NCBI RefSeq assembly: GCF_000219725.1
Contig: NC_015732.1
Span: 2,046,001-2,110,000 of the forward strand
From: Gracilinema caldarium DSM 7334
Lineage (GTDB): Bacteria; Spirochaetota; Spirochaetia; Treponematales; Breznakiellaceae
Reading direction: 5' to 3'
DNA: 64,000 nt
How positions within the stretch are numbered: position 1 is the stretch's first letter; each line of letters starts with the position of its first letter. Below, piece by piece: positions 7,893-27,466 of the stretch. The translations under genes and the position numbers were made by a program. Below the pieces are notes generated by a model. The model was not told the DNA's origin. It ran no database searches and was given only the letters and a program-made list of their open reading frames with translations.

Positions 7893-9373
7893 GAATAGTC
7901 AGTACAATTCGTAAGAAAATAGTAATCACAGCCCTTGCACCAGTTCTCATTCTTGCAATGACAGCATTGTTTACCGTGTTTACAATTACTTCTGCTGTAC
8001 AAGGTGTACAAGGCCTATTTATAAAAAATTATTATATGCAGGAACTACTTACGGAGGTGAATTATATTCAAACAGCCCTTTCATCATATATGGCAACTAA
8101 AAACTCTGAGGATTTGCGTAAAGTAATTCATTATTCCCGCTCAATAACTGATAAAGCTGTTCAATTAGACAAAGAAGTCTCTGCAGATCAGGAATCTCTG
8201 TTAGAACGAAACATTGCATCACTCATTGGAGAATTTATTTCAGCAAGTAACAATGCAGTACAATCAAAACGAGGAAGAAATCTATCGGAATATACTCAGA
8301 GACTTCAACGTGTAGAAGAGTTAGCAAGTTTAATTCAAGAAAGAACCAATTTACTCATGCTCGATCGTATGAAAATTCAATTATCTGCCTTTTCGGTATT
8401 TTCTAAAAATGTAACACTTATACGAAGCTTAAGTCTCAGTATGATTCTTGTTGCTTTGTTTTTTAGTATATCTATTATTTTTTATTTTACTGACAAGATA
8501 AGTGCACCAATTATCCATTTAGGGAATGCAGCGAATCAAATTGCTTCAGGTATATATGATGAACAGGAACTAATGGTTGAAGCGGATGACGAAATTGGGG
8601 CAACGGCCCGTGCATTTAATTTGATGAAAAAATCTATCATACAATCCTTTAATGAAATTAAAAACAAAGCAGAAATTGAACGAGCACTGATGGAACAACA
8701 AATGAAAAACCTTGAAATGACTAGCCTTTTAAAAAATGCAGAGTTATCCGCTTTACAAGCGAGAATAAATCCTCATTTTTTATTTAACACCTTGAATACT
8801 GGCATCCAGCTTGCTGTTGTAGAAGATGCAGATCGAACCCGCCGGTATCTGGAACAACTTACCAAACTAATGCGGTATTCTTTCAGAGATCTGGATATTC
8901 CGGTTGCCTTAGCCGAAGAAATGGACAGCATGAGATCTTATTTATATCTTATGTCAATCCGATTTCCCGACGTATTTGATTTTTCAATGCAAATAATCAG
9001 CCCCGCAGAGCATGCAATTATTCCCAAAATGACAATTCAACCCCTTGTGGAAAATGCTATTCGTCATGGGTTAAAAGATATGACAAGTAGTGCAAGTCTC
9101 ACAATTCAGGCTTATGTTGATGAATATCAACGATTATATATTAATATTGAAGACAATGGTAACGGTATTAGTCCCAATCGCATAACAGAAATTTTCAATG
9201 CCGCCGATCATGGAACTACACTAGATAAAAATGGCGAAGGCGGCATGGGTATGGTAAATGTTATTCAACGGTTACGATTATTTTCTGGAGAATGGGATGT
9301 CATACAAATTGAACCAATTACACCTAGAGGAACTAGAATCATAATTTCTTTGCCCTACAGGGAGCATACATAA
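7889..9373 (+). CDS. Sensor histidine kinase, LytS/YesM (His_kinase PF06580) type
   Basis: This is an inner-membrane kinase that would autophosphorylate in response to the neighbouring binding protein and phosphorylate the YesN-type regulator downstream. Seen in 494 residues: a first membrane segment (about 11-35), an extracytoplasmic helical domain (about 36-180), a second membrane segment (about 181-200), a HAMP linker, a coiled-coil region, the phospho-acceptor His296 in ARINPHFLFN, the N box PLVENAIRHGL, and G-box glycines in GEGGMGMVNVIQRL. It overlaps both neighbours by a few bases. The codon use is strongly AT-rich compared with gltBD. Confidence 0.93.
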   Translation: MRIVSTIRKKIVITALAPVLILAMTALFTVFTITSAVQGVQGLFIKNYYMQELLTEVNYIQTALSSYMATKNSEDLRKVIHYSRSITDKAVQLDKEVSADQESLLERNIASLIGEFISASNNAVQSKRGRNLSEYTQRLQRVEELASLIQERTNLLMLDRMKIQLSAFSVFSKNVTLIRSLSLSMILVALFFSISIIFYFTDKISAPIIHLGNAANQIASGIYDEQELMVEADDEIGATARAFNLMKKSIIQSFNEIKNKAEIERALMEQQMKNLEMTSLLKNAELSALQARINPHFLFNTLNTGIQLAVVEDADRTRRYLEQLTKLMRYSFRDLDIPVALAEEMDSMRSYLYLMSIRFPDVFDFSMQIISPAEHAIIPKMTIQPLVENAIRHGLKDMTSSASLTIQAYVDEYQRLYINIEDNGNGISPNRITEIFNAADHGTTLDKNGEGGMGMVNVIQRLRLFSGEWDVIQIEPITPRGTRIIISLPYREHT

Positions 9374-10683
9374 TGAATGCTAAAATTTTTCTTGTTGATG
9401 ATGAACAACCAGTACTCGATGGCTTATCAGTAATTATTACTAAATTTATACCAGAACTTACCATTTGTGGAACTGCTCGTTCAGGAAAGGTTGCTATAGA
9501 AGCAATACAACAAACCCATCCAGATATTATCATTATGGATATTCGTATGCCAGGGATGAGTGGTATAGATGTGCTTAAAGAGTTAGATCGTCTTGGTTTA
9601 GAGTGTTTAACCATTTTACTCACTGCCTATGAACGGTTTGATATTGCCCAAGAAGCCTGTGGACTGGGTGTTTATAATTATCTCGTTAAACCTGTCGAAC
9701 AGGATATCTTTATTAAAATTCTTAAAAATGCACTTCTACATATTCAAAAAAGAAAAGAACGGACAAACCAGGCTGTAAATGCACTAGAACTGTTACGGCT
9801 GGCTCGTCCCATTTTAGAGGAATCTTTTTTGTTTTATTTACTTTTAGGAGATAGTTCAAAAATACAAATAACAACCTATGCTCAAATATTTGGCTGGAAT
9901 TCATCAGAAAAGATATATGGGCATTGTGCAGTAATAGCTAGTAGACAATCATTACAATATGAGGAGTGCATTGCAATTCAAACTGAAATATCAAATCATC
10001 TCAATTGTCTTTCGGGAAAATTATTTAATACTTATATAATGCTATTTATCCCAGGAAATAATACAGAGCATACCAATACTATTTTAAAATATATTACTAA
10101 TAAATTAGTTACTATGGACCTAGTATATAATATAGGTCCACCAAAACAGTTAGCAATTGCTTCTCAATCTTTATTAGAAGCATTTTTATCTTTACCGGAT
10201 TTTCAACAAAAGAATGAACATGAAGAAACTCTTACTTTGCAACTAATAAAAAAAATGATCCAAGAAATATCATTAAAAAATTATTCAGCGACTGCATTGT
10301 TTATTGGATTACAACAAATAGTTAACCAACAGACTACCTTTACTGCGTTTTCAGACCGAAGAATATTACTTGCATTACGATTTATTGAAGCAAATTATGG
10401 AAAACAAATATCACTTGAAGATACAGCACAAGCTGTTGATTTAAGCCCAGCCTATTTGTCACGTCTTTTAGTCACCGAAACAGGCAAATCATTTATTGAA
10501 CATCTTACTAAATATCGAATGGATCGGGCTTGTAAAGAATTAGCCAAAGGCCAATATTCTATAAAGGAGATTGCTGCAATTTGTGGATATCCAGACTCGA
10601 ACTATTTTAGCAGAATTTTTAAAAAGCACATTGGCCAAACACCATCAGAATTTGCAGAACAGTGTGGGAGGATATTACTATGA
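9373..10683 (+). CDS. Response regulator with AraC-type DNA-binding domain (YesN type)
   Basis: This is the cognate transcription factor of the kinase. The N-terminal receiver domain (1-120) has the acidic pair Asp9-Asp10, the phosphorylation site Asp56 in IIIMDIRMPG, a conserved Thr in LLTAYE and Lys in YLVKPVE. A poorly conserved middle region (about 125-330) is followed by an AraC double helix-turn-helix (about 335-435), including the family signature around IAAICGYPDSNYFSRIFKKH. The start overlaps the kinase stop by one base (TAATG). The likely target is the mgl operon downstream, inferred from position only. Confidence 0.92.
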   Translation: MNAKIFLVDDEQPVLDGLSVIITKFIPELTICGTARSGKVAIEAIQQTHPDIIIMDIRMPGMSGIDVLKELDRLGLECLTILLTAYERFDIAQEACGLGVYNYLVKPVEQDIFIKILKNALLHIQKRKERTNQAVNALELLRLARPILEESFLFYLLLGDSSKIQITTYAQIFGWNSSEKIYGHCAVIASRQSLQYEECIAIQTEISNHLNCLSGKLFNTYIMLFIPGNNTEHTNTILKYITNKLVTMDLVYNIGPPKQLAIASQSLLEAFLSLPDFQQKNEHEETLTLQLIKKMIQEISLKNYSATALFIGLQQIVNQQTTFTAFSDRRILLALRFIEANYGKQISLEDTAQAVDLSPAYLSRLLVTETGKSFIEHLTKYRMDRACKELAKGQYSIKEIAAICGYPDSNYFSRIFKKHIGQTPSEFAEQCGRILL

Positions 10684-24788: not shown

Positions 24789-24802
24789 GGGTGAGGCAGC
24801 AC

Positions 24803-24945
24803 CGGAGCCTGGGCTGGTTATGTTACCGTTAGTGGGGGGCCCGTCTGGGGAAACTACGGGGGCCCCTGTATCCCCGTAGTTTTCCCAGACACCCCCTGTT
24901 ACCGGTTCTCACCCGCCCAGGCTCCGCCCTTTAGCGGAGGGGGGA
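24803..24945. repeat. Nested palindromic element A
   Basis: Outer arms 24803-24818 and 24911-24926 pair at 15 of 16 positions; an inner 19-bp stem pairs 24843-24861 with 24872-24890 with one wobble, flanked by G-run and C-run segments. A small hairpin (CTCCGC, 24922-24927 with GCGGAG, 24934-24939) closes the right end, followed by a G-run. The same right-hand block recurs at 26258-26313 and 26428-26485. Between A and E (24946-25053) I see nothing recognisable. Confidence 0.85.
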
Positions 24946-25053
24946 GAAGGACGGAAGCGGGAAGCTATAAGGAAATTTTGAAACAAATACGAGGGTAGCC
25001 GCAGGGAACCTGAGCGGCGGATGGGAGTAAGGGTTTACCATCGCTGAAAGTGT

Positions 25054-25174
25054 GGGAAGGGGGCTTACGAAAAAAGTAGCATGGGGTGTCTGTGGGAAAT
25101 ATGGGGGATTCAGGGGGTCCCCCATATTTCCCACAGACAGGACCCCTAGTACAATTATATGAAGCCCCCTTCCC
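25054..25174. repeat. Nested palindromic element E
   Basis: It has the same plan as element A but with different arms. Outer perfect 13-bp arms (GGGAAGGGGGCTT, 25054-25066, with 25162-25174) enclose an inner perfect 21-bp stem (25088-25108 with 25118-25138, 9-nt loop). GGGGT and ACCCC flank the inner stem. Its right arm resembles the right end of element D. It ends 19 bp before the promoter of the Rpn-type gene. Confidence 0.85.
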
Positions 25175-25192
25175 GCAAGTGGAAAATTATGA

Positions 25193-25222
25193 TTGCCTGC
25201 TTCTTACCTCTAGTGCTATCAT
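25193..25222 (+). promoter_or_regulatory. Predicted leaderless promoter of the Rpn-type nuclease gene
   Basis: TTGCCT (25193-25198) and TATCAT (25217-25222) are 18 bp apart; TATTTC separates the -10 box from the ATG at 25229. No Shine-Dalgarno sequence is present. Confidence 0.5.
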
Positions 25223-25228
25223 TATTTC

Positions 25229-26164
25229 ATGCAACAGTCCCACGACCGGGGATACCGGACCTTATTTACAAATGTTGAGCTCGTCCAGCAGTTACTCGAG
25301 TCCTTTGTCCATGAAAGTTGGGTCAAGGATATCGATTTTTCTCAGGCATCCCTGTTTGACACTTCTATCATTTCTCCGGTCTATCAAAAAACTGAATCTG
25401 ATGTTATCTGGCGTCTCCCCCTCTTTTCTGGTTCCGAAATATACCTCCTGCTCCTCCTGGAGTTCCAATCTAAGGTCGACCCCTTCATGGCCTTCAGGAT
25501 GCTACAGTACATCATACAGATCTATCACAGCTTAAGAAAGCAAAACCCTAAGCTCACGAGCTTTCCACCGGTTTTTCCTGTGGTACTCTACAACGGTGAA
25601 AAACCCTGGACTGCTCCGGTACAATTTGCAGACCTGGTCTATCCGCAGATTGGGGGGACCTATATTCCTCAGTTCCAGTATTTTAAGCTTGCGGAGAACG
25701 AATTTAAGCGGGAAGAGCTTTTGCGTCTTAAAAACCTGATAAGTGCCCTGTTTTTAATAGAAACATCGACGGTAGAAGACTATCCCTCGACAATAGAACA
25801 AATTGTGGATATATTAGAAAAGGTAAGTCCTGACTTGTATAAAGAAATAGTCCGGTGGTTATGGCACACCATAGGCCAGGAAGCGCCGCCAGAACTGGAT
25901 AAACTCCCCAGAACGAAGGAGGTACCGACGATGTTAGCGGCTGAACTGCAGAGAGAACGGGAAGCAATACGACAGAAAAGTTTACTCGAAGGACTCCAGA
26001 AAGGTAAACTTGAAGGTAAACTTGAAGGTAAGCAAGAAGGCAAACTCGAAGGAATACTTGAAAACAAGAAAGAAACCGCCCGTAAGTTAAAAGCCCGCGG
26101 TATGGCTGTACAGGATATTGCTGATATTACCGGCTTAAGTATTGAACTGATTCAGACTTTATAA
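25229..26164 (+). CDS. Rpn-family recombination-promoting nuclease / putative transposase
   Basis: This 311-residue protein belongs to the Rpn family (PF04754, formerly Transposase_31), PD-(D/E)XK nucleases that promote RecA-independent recombination. Seen: the likely active-site Asp58 in ESDVIWRL and Glu78-x-Gln80 in LLLEFQSKVDPF; the family block PPVFPVVLYNGEKPW near residues 112-126; and a C-terminal run of GKLEG-type repeats (about 252-275) predicted to be charged and helical, common in this family and prone to length change. The last ~30 residues resemble a small helix-turn-helix (GMAVQDIADITGLS). It stands alone, between palindromic elements E and B, an arrangement suggesting a functional link that needs testing. 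Confidence 0.88.
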   Translation: MQQSHDRGYRTLFTNVELVQQLLESFVHESWVKDIDFSQASLFDTSIISPVYQKTESDVIWRLPLFSGSEIYLLLLLEFQSKVDPFMAFRMLQYIIQIYHSLRKQNPKLTSFPPVFPVVLYNGEKPWTAPVQFADLVYPQIGGTYIPQFQYFKLAENEFKREELLRLKNLISALFLIETSTVEDYPSTIEQIVDILEKVSPDLYKEIVRWLWHTIGQEAPPELDKLPRTKEVPTMLAAELQREREAIRQKSLLEGLQKGKLEGKLEGKQEGKLEGILENKKETARKLKARGMAVQDIADITGLSIELIQTL

Positions 26165-26169
26165 CGGTT

Positions 26170-26313
26170 CCGGAGCCTGGGCGGGTTGTAGACAAGTTGC
26201 TGAGGGGTCCTGGCACTGCGAACATAGGGGCCCTTTAATTCCCTATGTTCTCCGCGCCACCCCCCAGCACCATTTCTCACCCGCCCAGGCTCCGGCTTTC
26301 AGCGGAGGGGGGG
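26170..26313. repeat. Nested palindromic element B
   Basis: The outer arms are a perfect 17-bp inverted repeat, CCGGAGCCTGGGCGGGT (26170-26186) with 26279-26295. The inner stem GAACATAGGG (26220-26229) pairs with 26241-26250 and is unrelated in sequence to that of element A. The right end carries the same GCGGAG plus G-run tail. It starts five bp after the Rpn-type gene stop, so it may also act as that gene's terminator. Confidence 0.85.
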
Positions 26314-26317
26314 CCTG

Positions 26318-26400
26318 GCTTCAGCATCCATGCTGACGCAGAACTCTAGCAACAGAGTTCTGCGGGAAAATAGTGGCCCGACATCCCTGTCGGGCGGGGT
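26318..26400. repeat. Three-hairpin repeat module M, copy 1
   Basis: Three adjacent hairpins: CAGCATCCATGCTG (26322-26335); 11-bp perfect arms CGCAGAACTCT (26337-26347) with 26354-26364; and GCCCGACA (26376-26383) with 26388-26395. The first and third share a CATCCxTG apex. The module recurs nearly unchanged at 27314-27400 inside element D. Confidence 0.8.
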
Positions 26401-26485
26401 CCCCTTAGTCCCCGTAGTTTCCCCAGCCACCCCCTGTTACCGTTTCTCACTCGCCCAGGCTCCGGGCTTTTTGCGGAGGGGGAGA
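26401..26485. repeat. Right half of a nested palindrome (C), left half missing
   Basis: This segment matches the right half of element A (CCCCGTAGTTT, CACCCCCTGTTACCG, CGCCCAGGCTCCG and the GCGGAG tail) but has no left half; module M lies where it should be. It ends 18 bp before the toxin gene stop. Together 26165-26502 contains only repeat DNA. Confidence 0.75.
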
Positions 26486-26502: not shown

Positions 26503-26826
26503 TTAACAGCTATTTCTTTTTGCTGCGATAGAATAAACCGCATTATCTTCTCTTATGGAAATAACAATAATTCTCATAATATCCTCATTTTTAACAGTAT
26601 CAAGCTTATAAACAAATCTTAGCCCTAAACCTTTAAGCTTAATTTTAAAAAGCCCGGTTAAATTTTTATTATTTTTGTTACCTAGCGGTTTTCCATATCC
26701 ACCTTCTGTAAAAGGTTTTGGATTCTCTGAAACTTTAATTATTGCTTTTAATACAATTTTTCTTTGAGAACCATCTAATTGCTCTAGTTCTATCTTTGCC
26801 TCTGGATGATATTCGATTTTCCACAT
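26503..26826 (-). CDS. RelE/ParE-family toxin
   Basis: This is a 107-residue protein with the RelE/ParE fold: an N-terminal strand WKIEYHPEAKIELEQLDGSQR, central L.GLFKIKLKGLGLRFVYKLD and C-terminal IMRIIVISIREDNAVY. RelE members cut mRNA on the ribosome whereas ParE members poison gyrase; the sequence does not let me decide, though the basic strand around KGLGLRFVYK with the C-terminal R..VY fits RelE-like cleavage. It starts three bases after the antitoxin stop and is therefore cotranscribed with it. Confidence 0.88.
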   Translation of the reverse strand: MWKIEYHPEAKIELEQLDGSQRKIVLKAIIKVSENPKPFTEGGYGKPLGNKNNKNLTGLFKIKLKGLGLRFVYKLDTVKNEDIMRIIVISIREDNAVYSIAAKRNSC

Positions 26827-26829
26827 GGA

Positions 26830-27150
26830 TTACTCCAGATCAACATCAATTTCCTTTAGATCATCCTCAGAAATATTCATATCTTTCAAAATGTCTTCAT
26901 GGGAGATATAGTCCACTTTTTGCGATAATCTTTTATTTGCCTCAAGAAGTAATAAGGCGTCTTCATATTTTTCCATCATTTCCTGGTATTCCTTTGGGCT
27001 AATTAAAACGCATTCCGGCGCATTATTCTTTACAACTATTTTTATCCCCTTCGTTTTAACTTCTTTAAAAATTTTATTTGCCTCACCTTTATTAAACCGG
27101 CTAATAGGAACTATAGAATCTAAAAGATTCACTGCCTTAAAAACAGCCAT
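26830..27150 (-). CDS. Phd/YefM-family antitoxin
   Basis: This is a 106-residue antitoxin. The N-terminal domain has the Phd/YefM pattern IVPISRFNKGEANKIF followed by KIVVKNNAPECVLISPKEYQEMME; the C-terminal part is acidic and helical, suited to wrapping the toxin. The start is ATG at 27150 (or 27153) after a GGGGGA ribosome site. Such antitoxins repress their own promoter with the toxin. The gene is AT-rich compared with the surrounding repeats, and the pair sits within repeat-rich accessory DNA. Confidence 0.88.
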   Translation of the reverse strand: MAVFKAVNLLDSIVPISRFNKGEANKIFKEVKTKGIKIVVKNNAPECVLISPKEYQEMMEKYEDALLLLEANKRLSQKVDYISHEDILKDMNISEDDLKEIDVDLE

Positions 27151-27254
27151 CATCTCCCCCAATACGCAGGTATTATATACAATATTTTAATTTACATATT
27201 TATTGTTAATTATAACGATATATTTATTAATTTTCAACCAAAACAGTTATACCA

Positions 27255-27466
27255 GTTCCGGAGCCTGGGCGGGTTTTCTACCTTGGACTGGGGGTCCTGT
27301 CTGCAGCATCCGTGCTTCAGCATCCCTGCTGACGCAGAAATCTGGCAACAGAGTTCTGCGCGCATGTGGTAGCCCGACATCCCTGTCGGGCGGGGATCAT
27401 GGGGTCCCCAGACTGTACCAAGGCAGGACCCCCGGTAAAATTTAAAAAACTCCCTTTCCGCAATTA
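27255..27466. repeat. Chimeric palindromic element D with module M copy 2
   Basis: The left part (27258-27299) copies the left half of element B (GGAGCCTGGGCGGGT, then GGGGGTCCTG). Module M follows (27314-27400). The right part (CAGGACCCCC, 27424-27433, and CTCCCTTTCCGCAA) resembles the right half of element E. GGGGGTCCTG pairs with CAGGACCCCC across the insert. Outer arms do not match each other. The stretch 27163-27491 holds no gene. Confidence 0.75.

Follow-up and report, generated by a model that had tools for sequence, protein, structure and literature searches.

Within the chromosome of Gracilinema caldarium (the host), a gene for an Rpn-type nuclease is bracketed by nested palindromes, which raises the question of what these palindromes are and whether Rpn spreads them. 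An earlier note on this locus had proposed that the palindromes are mobilized or copied by the nuclease. It also suggested counting copies in the genome and in relatives, and stated that copies in genomes lacking rpn would refute the proposal. We analyzed a window of 64,000 nucleotides (bases 2,046,001-2,110,000 of the complete 3,239,340-bp chromosome) and used covariance-model and pattern searches to follow the palindromes in the rest of the host genome and in other genomes. The features of the locus are collected in Table 1.

Table 1. Palindromic elements and neighboring genes at the rpn locus, in window coordinates.
Feature	Position	Strand	Outer arms	Inner arms	Core	Description
Element A	24802-24926	-	CCGGAGCCTGGGC.., 24802-24818 / 24911-24926 (paired: 24803-24818/24911-24926)	24843-24861/24872-24890	24835-24895	Nested palindrome
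Element E	25051-25177	+	about 25051-25066/25162-25177	25087-25108/25118-25139	25083-25146	Nested palindrome
rpn gene	25229-26164	+				PF04754 Transposase_31 / TIGR01784; neighbor, outside the element
Element B	26170-26295	-	26170-26186 / 26279-26295	about 26212-26229/26241-26258	26204-26263	Nested palindrome
Copy D	about 26316-26466	-				Damaged A-type copy
Two-gene unit between D and X	26503-27162	-				Phd/YefM-type antitoxin (gene at 26830-27162) and partner
Copy X	about 27256-27463	+				Chimeric, damaged copy

The nested palindromes A, E, and B follow one plan, as the earlier note had described: they fold strongly, they have a collar in common (GGGGTG...CAGGACCCC, in which a GGA forms an asymmetric bulge), and their self-complementary inner stems differ. 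The folding z-scores are -6.0 for A, -10.7 for E, and -5.7 for B, and no shuffled sequence folded equally well. Recomputing the coordinates of the arms confirmed that the outer arms of A (16 bp with one mismatch) and of B (17 bp, perfect) are nearly identical in sequence, and that their inner stems are unlike each other and each self-complementary. The inner arms are 19 bp and 95% paired in A, and 22 bp and perfectly paired in E. The outer arm of element E (GTGGGAAGGGGGCTT.. / ..AAGCCCCCTTCCCGCA) is of another type, unlike that of A and B. A and E form an outward-facing pair (-,+), and B does begin 5 bp past the stop codon of rpn.

Two additional members of the family at this locus, D and X, are damaged and were absent from the earlier note. 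In copy D, a string of three small hairpins stands in place of one arm of the inner stem, and one outer arm is gone. Copy X combines an A-type left outer arm, a string of small hairpins, and an E-type right half (..CAGGACCCCC..CTCCCTTTCCGCA). The antitoxin gene between D and X belongs to PF02604, and its partner encodes a protein of 107 amino acids that has no Pfam match and is RelE-like by eye. A gene for a putative restriction endonuclease of the Uma2 family (PF05685; 27492-28061, minus strand) adjoins the element cluster. On the hydG side of the locus, three genomes of the same genus align with the host until about 24,791-24,796 and then diverge, so the island A-E-rpn-B is absent from them; the other side differs as well.

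We built a covariance model from the cores of the elements in the host genome. In the core alignment, the inner stem is surrounded by a collar (GGGGTGNC ... GNCAGGACCCC) whose 3' side contains an unpaired GGA, and this conserved asymmetric bulge gives the element a polarity. The unit is a nested hairpin of 120-220 bp: the outer arms are specific to each species, the collar is conserved and carries a bulge of 3 nt, the inner stem measures 12-22 bp, and there is an apical module. Within the host genome, the model matches 15 full cores, along with partial copies, and little else, which excludes chance. These copies fall into six clusters, at 308-310, 611 (half copies), 982, 1198-1220, 2070-2073 (the window), and 2685-2688 kb. 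Five of the six adjoin toxin-antitoxin, rpn, or polymorphic-toxin-like genes. For example, PIN-domain toxin-antitoxin pairs are found at 308, 309, and 612 kb and a HicA pair at 2687 kb, besides the Phd-type pair in the window. The copy at 982 kb is solitary, its outer arm is of a third kind, and it lies between an alcohol-dehydrogenase-like gene and gltX (by our reading of the ORFs). A transposase-like gene that is split over two ORFs (8089-9551 of locus L032) is about 2 kb from the cluster at 308-310 kb.

At 1.198-1.220 Mb there are six copies, with 86-100% identity in both the left and the right flank. Their inner parts fall into two groups, with 98-100% identity within groups and 35-45% between them. 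Both inner arms change together, and this clean swap is the main difference among the six copies. Thus, the plan of constant outer parts and an exchangeable inner part recurs at an independent locus.

The surrounding region (1193000-1225000; loci L089, L035, and L090) is an array of repeated large polymorphic-toxin-like cassettes whose C-termini differ. The cassettes are truncated at their 5' ends at varied points, one nested palindrome lies ahead of each unit, and the part in common stops at GTGCTCCCCCT, ahead of the truncated gene.

Beyond the host, we searched 60 sampled genomes of its family. Covariance-model matches were present in 21 of the 60 (including the host), with at least 41 in Breznakiella homolactica RmG30 (NZ_CP067089.2; the complete genome of a cultivated bacterium), 18 in each of G042 and G059, and 11 in G032. 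Among 149 genomes sampled across the phylum, the only matches were in the host and in one genome from another family of the same order. Among the 127 distinct copies, all 17 neighboring pairs (those within 600 bp) face outward (-,+), with gaps of 176-424 bp, and units are often found in such pairs between genes. Rfam 15 contains nothing near the gathering score for the element, and our literature searches did not find a description of such a repeat family. Overall, the palindromes are a previously unnamed, dispersed family of non-coding DNA repeats of one spirochaete family (Breznakiella and termite-gut Treponema). The earlier note's comparison to REP elements, as a repeat family with constant outer arms and exchangeable self-complementary inner stems, holds up and applies to other genera as well.

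We also scanned about 85,000 species for the pattern GGGGTGTC-N35-65-GACAGGACCCC. Treponema and Spirochaetaceae records made up most of the matches listed, and palindromic cores were, among these listed matches, found nearly only there. The listed matches in Streptomyces, Arthrobacter, and other groups have no palindrome and look like chance, and we rejected viral carriage, as the one match listed on a viral contig is non-palindromic. An unexpected carrier among the matches listed is a MAG of a gammaproteobacterium, with several copies that form palindromes. These copies (MAG_CA28; L267 4872-4950 and 5894-5972, L206, and L238), far from the spirochaetes, have the same core (GGGGTGTCAGGGTAGG...CCTACCCTGACAGGACCCC) and the same bulge. 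They are dispersed, with a nearly constant stem and a separate small hairpin ahead. They do not appear to be parts of an autonomous element: the 1 kb between two of the copies contains an ordinary gene and no transposase. There is also a second class of unit, which has a long 5' extension (GTGGGGGTAGCG..AAGCCCC..GGCTGGAGCGAGGGGGAGC) and GTGCTCCCCC on the 3' side. Its extension is recognizably common to Breznakiella (L156, L158, and L159) and the host genome (L035 5190-5370 and 6380-6540).

The inner stems of the Breznakiella copies vary greatly while remaining paired. In 18 gapless cores, 99.1% of cells are paired, there are 113 double changes (versus 31.8 in shuffles), and 17 pairs have compensatory changes. 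The covariation is 0.572, versus 0.151 when shuffled and 0.06-0.13 when slid (that is, the slid controls fail). Complementarity of the inner arms is 0.97 within a copy versus 0.56 between copies, and all 21 of 21 stems are distinct. The outer arm has an identity of 0.80 and a pairing of 0.88, and the identity of the inner stem is 0.48. If copies are picked by their outer arms alone, which keeps pairing out of the choice of copies, then inner pairing is 0.91 and identity is 0.45. The variability is mild in G059 (0.82 for inner stems and 0.89 for outer arms), and strong variability is absent from two other genomes (MAGs), in which 3-4 stems are common to 9-10 copies. Hypervariable stems are clear in Breznakiella and are not general across genomes. 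Across 69 distinct elements, the mismatches among 1260 stem positions were 24 G-T, 19 A-C, and 24 other. G-T is as rare as A-C (binomial p 0.54), with no wobble bias on either strand. We rejected the inner stems as guides to targets: among the host matches listed at E up to 1, none outside of the elements involved the inner stems of A, E, or B.

The copies are dispersed, their pairs have one orientation, their distribution is family-restricted, their stems covary, and inner hairpins are exchanged as blocks. We infer that the inner hairpin of this family is probably rewritten or exchanged at the DNA level and that the family spreads via the collar and the outer arms. The inner hairpin would be kept self-complementary by template switching or by hairpin-templated repair, in which one inner arm would be copied from its partner. 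Inner hairpins would be exchanged when copies recombine through their constant collars, and the outer arms and the collar would be the part that is recognized by a spreading factor. The Rpn, toxin-antitoxin, and polymorphic-toxin-like genes are neighbors in the variable islands of the host, and not components. Template switching has been described as a process that creates and repairs perfect stems and as a route to simultaneous compensatory changes (PMC8794818). The likeness lies in perfect stems that arise or are mended when one arm is used as the template for the other, but those mutations were reported in RNA genes, whereas we propose such templating as the main driver in dispersed repeats. 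Templated rewriting is favored because the most diverged part of the element is also the best paired; templated rewriting predicts this pattern, and drift under selection for the fold does not.

The elements might instead be MITEs or REPIN-like units that are mobilized by a conventional transposase (DDE or HUH) whose gene lies elsewhere, with stem changes due to drift. We consider this possible but rather unlikely. The copies are dispersed and intergenic, their outer arms are inverted, and they form inverted pairs, all as expected of such units, but drift fails to explain why the more diverged part is better paired. No target-site duplications were seen at the ends of the Breznakiella elements (one idea is that the GGA bulge is itself a target-site duplication, at a GGGGACCCC palindrome), and neither a transposase nor any other gene family recurs beside the copies in other genomes. 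RAYT/Y1 transposases were rejected as the mobilizer: matches to PF01797 (Y1_Tnp) are absent from the complete host genome and from ten other element-bearing genomes, and Y1 transposases are uncorrelated with the elements across genomes. The earlier note had hoped to define the ends of the element from orthologous sites with and without it, but no empty site with exact ends was found among the fetched loci. Transposition of the elements is a candidate process.

It is unlikely, in our judgment, that the covariation reflects a selected RNA fold, as in a structured RNA or an RNA regulatory element (a processing site, an attenuator, or a terminator). The earlier note had read the covariation as structural selection. 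The pairing is indeed conserved, and an RNA would fit the strong covariation and the polarity given by a conserved, asymmetric bulge, but this is not the sole reading, since the equal rarity of G-T and A-C mismatches and the swaps of whole stems fit templated rewriting of DNA. Specifically, RNA selection predicts that G-U would be tolerated on the transcribed strand, but wobble is not tolerated on either strand; this and the swaps of both arms therefore point to templated DNA rewriting or exchange. (The low G-T count could also be caused by hairpins that are intolerant of any mismatch.) The absence of a match near the gathering score in Rfam, and the inner stem being both the most diverged and the best-paired part, argue against an RNA as well. 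The gene context, which rests on crude ORF calls, is mixed. Among 56 sites, 17 are between divergent genes and 11 are between convergent genes, which does not fit an RNA; there is no convergent bias, so we rejected the terminator reading. Sites in tandem with genes are in the same orientation in 19 cases versus the opposite orientation in 9, as might be expected of an RNA. Several Breznakiella units (3' flanks of L141-L160) stop a few bases before a TTGAC..TATAAT-like promoter.

A more elaborate form of DNA-level rewriting, which we regard as doubtful, is dedicated diversification. Upon or after copying, the inner hairpin would be resynthesized as a new perfect, purine-biased stem within the fixed collar, so that each copy would have its own hairpin. 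If true, this would be a diversity-generating hairpin element.

As for Rpn, its role as a general mobilizer is refuted, and we consider an Rpn-mobilized palindrome family very improbable. The host has five intact rpn genes (PF04754), of which two are flanked by elements and a third is about 225 bp from one. However, flanking on both sides is limited to the gene in the window and a paralogue of 84% identity at 2,686,197, so the bracketing that the earlier note pointed out holds here and for one paralogue, and not for the other three of the five. E and rpn align as one homologous block between these two sites and were co-duplicated. Around the rpn genes at 2443 and 2449 kb, palindromes of this kind are absent. 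Rpn proteins have been described as toxin-antitoxin/anti-phage systems (PMC10327210), and such a role fits with the toxin-antitoxin genes among the other neighbors of the elements. The main support for the absence of a link is an rpn profile search across the 60 genomes of the family. The number of elements does not track rpn (Spearman 0.17, p 0.20), and four genomes have elements without any rpn match, which refutes the proposal as a general rule. B. homolactica, despite having the most matches to the element, has only two sub-threshold rpn fragments, and G019 has 23 rpn matches and zero elements. Searches with two rpn queries found no rpn in the fetched loci of other genomes.

Integron-like attC sites that bracket toxin-antitoxin cassettes can be dismissed as most improbable: attC sites likewise conserve structure more than sequence, and five of the six host clusters are beside toxin-antitoxin, rpn, or polymorphic-toxin-like genes, but the outer arms (GGAGCCTGGGCGGGT, GGAAGGGGGCTT, GGGCCTGCGCCCAGGG, and others), read by eye, have no GTTRRRY/RYYYAAC boxes, both orientations occur, and no recurrent gene family is found beside the copies in other genomes.

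Among known repeats, the BOX elements of Streptococcus pneumoniae are modular hairpin repeats, and they resemble this family in having outer modules and exchangeable middle modules. Their sequences are different, the collar with a bulge is absent, and we know of no rewriting of their inner stems in each copy. The family works like REPIN/BIME repeats, does not belong to the RAYT-type REPs, and is not tied to Rpn. As with REPINs and BIMEs that are associated with RAYT (PMC3116915, PMC2817692, PMC3733652), the elements are dispersed, intergenic, non-coding palindromes with tens of copies per genome, and they form inverted pairs with a spacer (PMC3116915), which here are (-,+) in 17 of 17 cases. 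However, REP/REPIN units are 20-40 bp, versus nested hairpins of 120-220 bp here. REPs have an unpaired GTAG/CGTC foot (PMC3733652), and we saw none when we inspected the flank listings. RAYT-mobilized REPs have a Y1_Tnp gene, which the complete host genome lacks. Furthermore, the elements have no bias towards convergent or unidirectional sites, their inner stem exceeds the outer arm in both divergence and pairing, and G-T is not in excess. Palindromic repeats in Volvox organelles and repetitive hairpin elements in mitochondria (PMC2670323, PMC2800124) are similar in that palindromes are inserted within palindromes and nested hairpins spread in non-coding DNA, but those are organelle repeats, whereas the family described here is bacterial, has a polarity, and keeps both its collar and the orientation of its pairs fixed. 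The putative rewriting or exchange of the inner hairpin at the DNA level would be the family's most unusual trait.

Compensatory change is usually read as proof of a selected RNA fold. A repeat family with many copies provides a natural test of the alternative, in which one arm of a hairpin serves as the template for the other during DNA replication or repair, and this alternative is testable in Breznakiella homolactica, which has many copies in one complete genome. The palindromes add a repeat family to this group of spirochaetes, and palindromes beside an rpn gene need not involve rpn.
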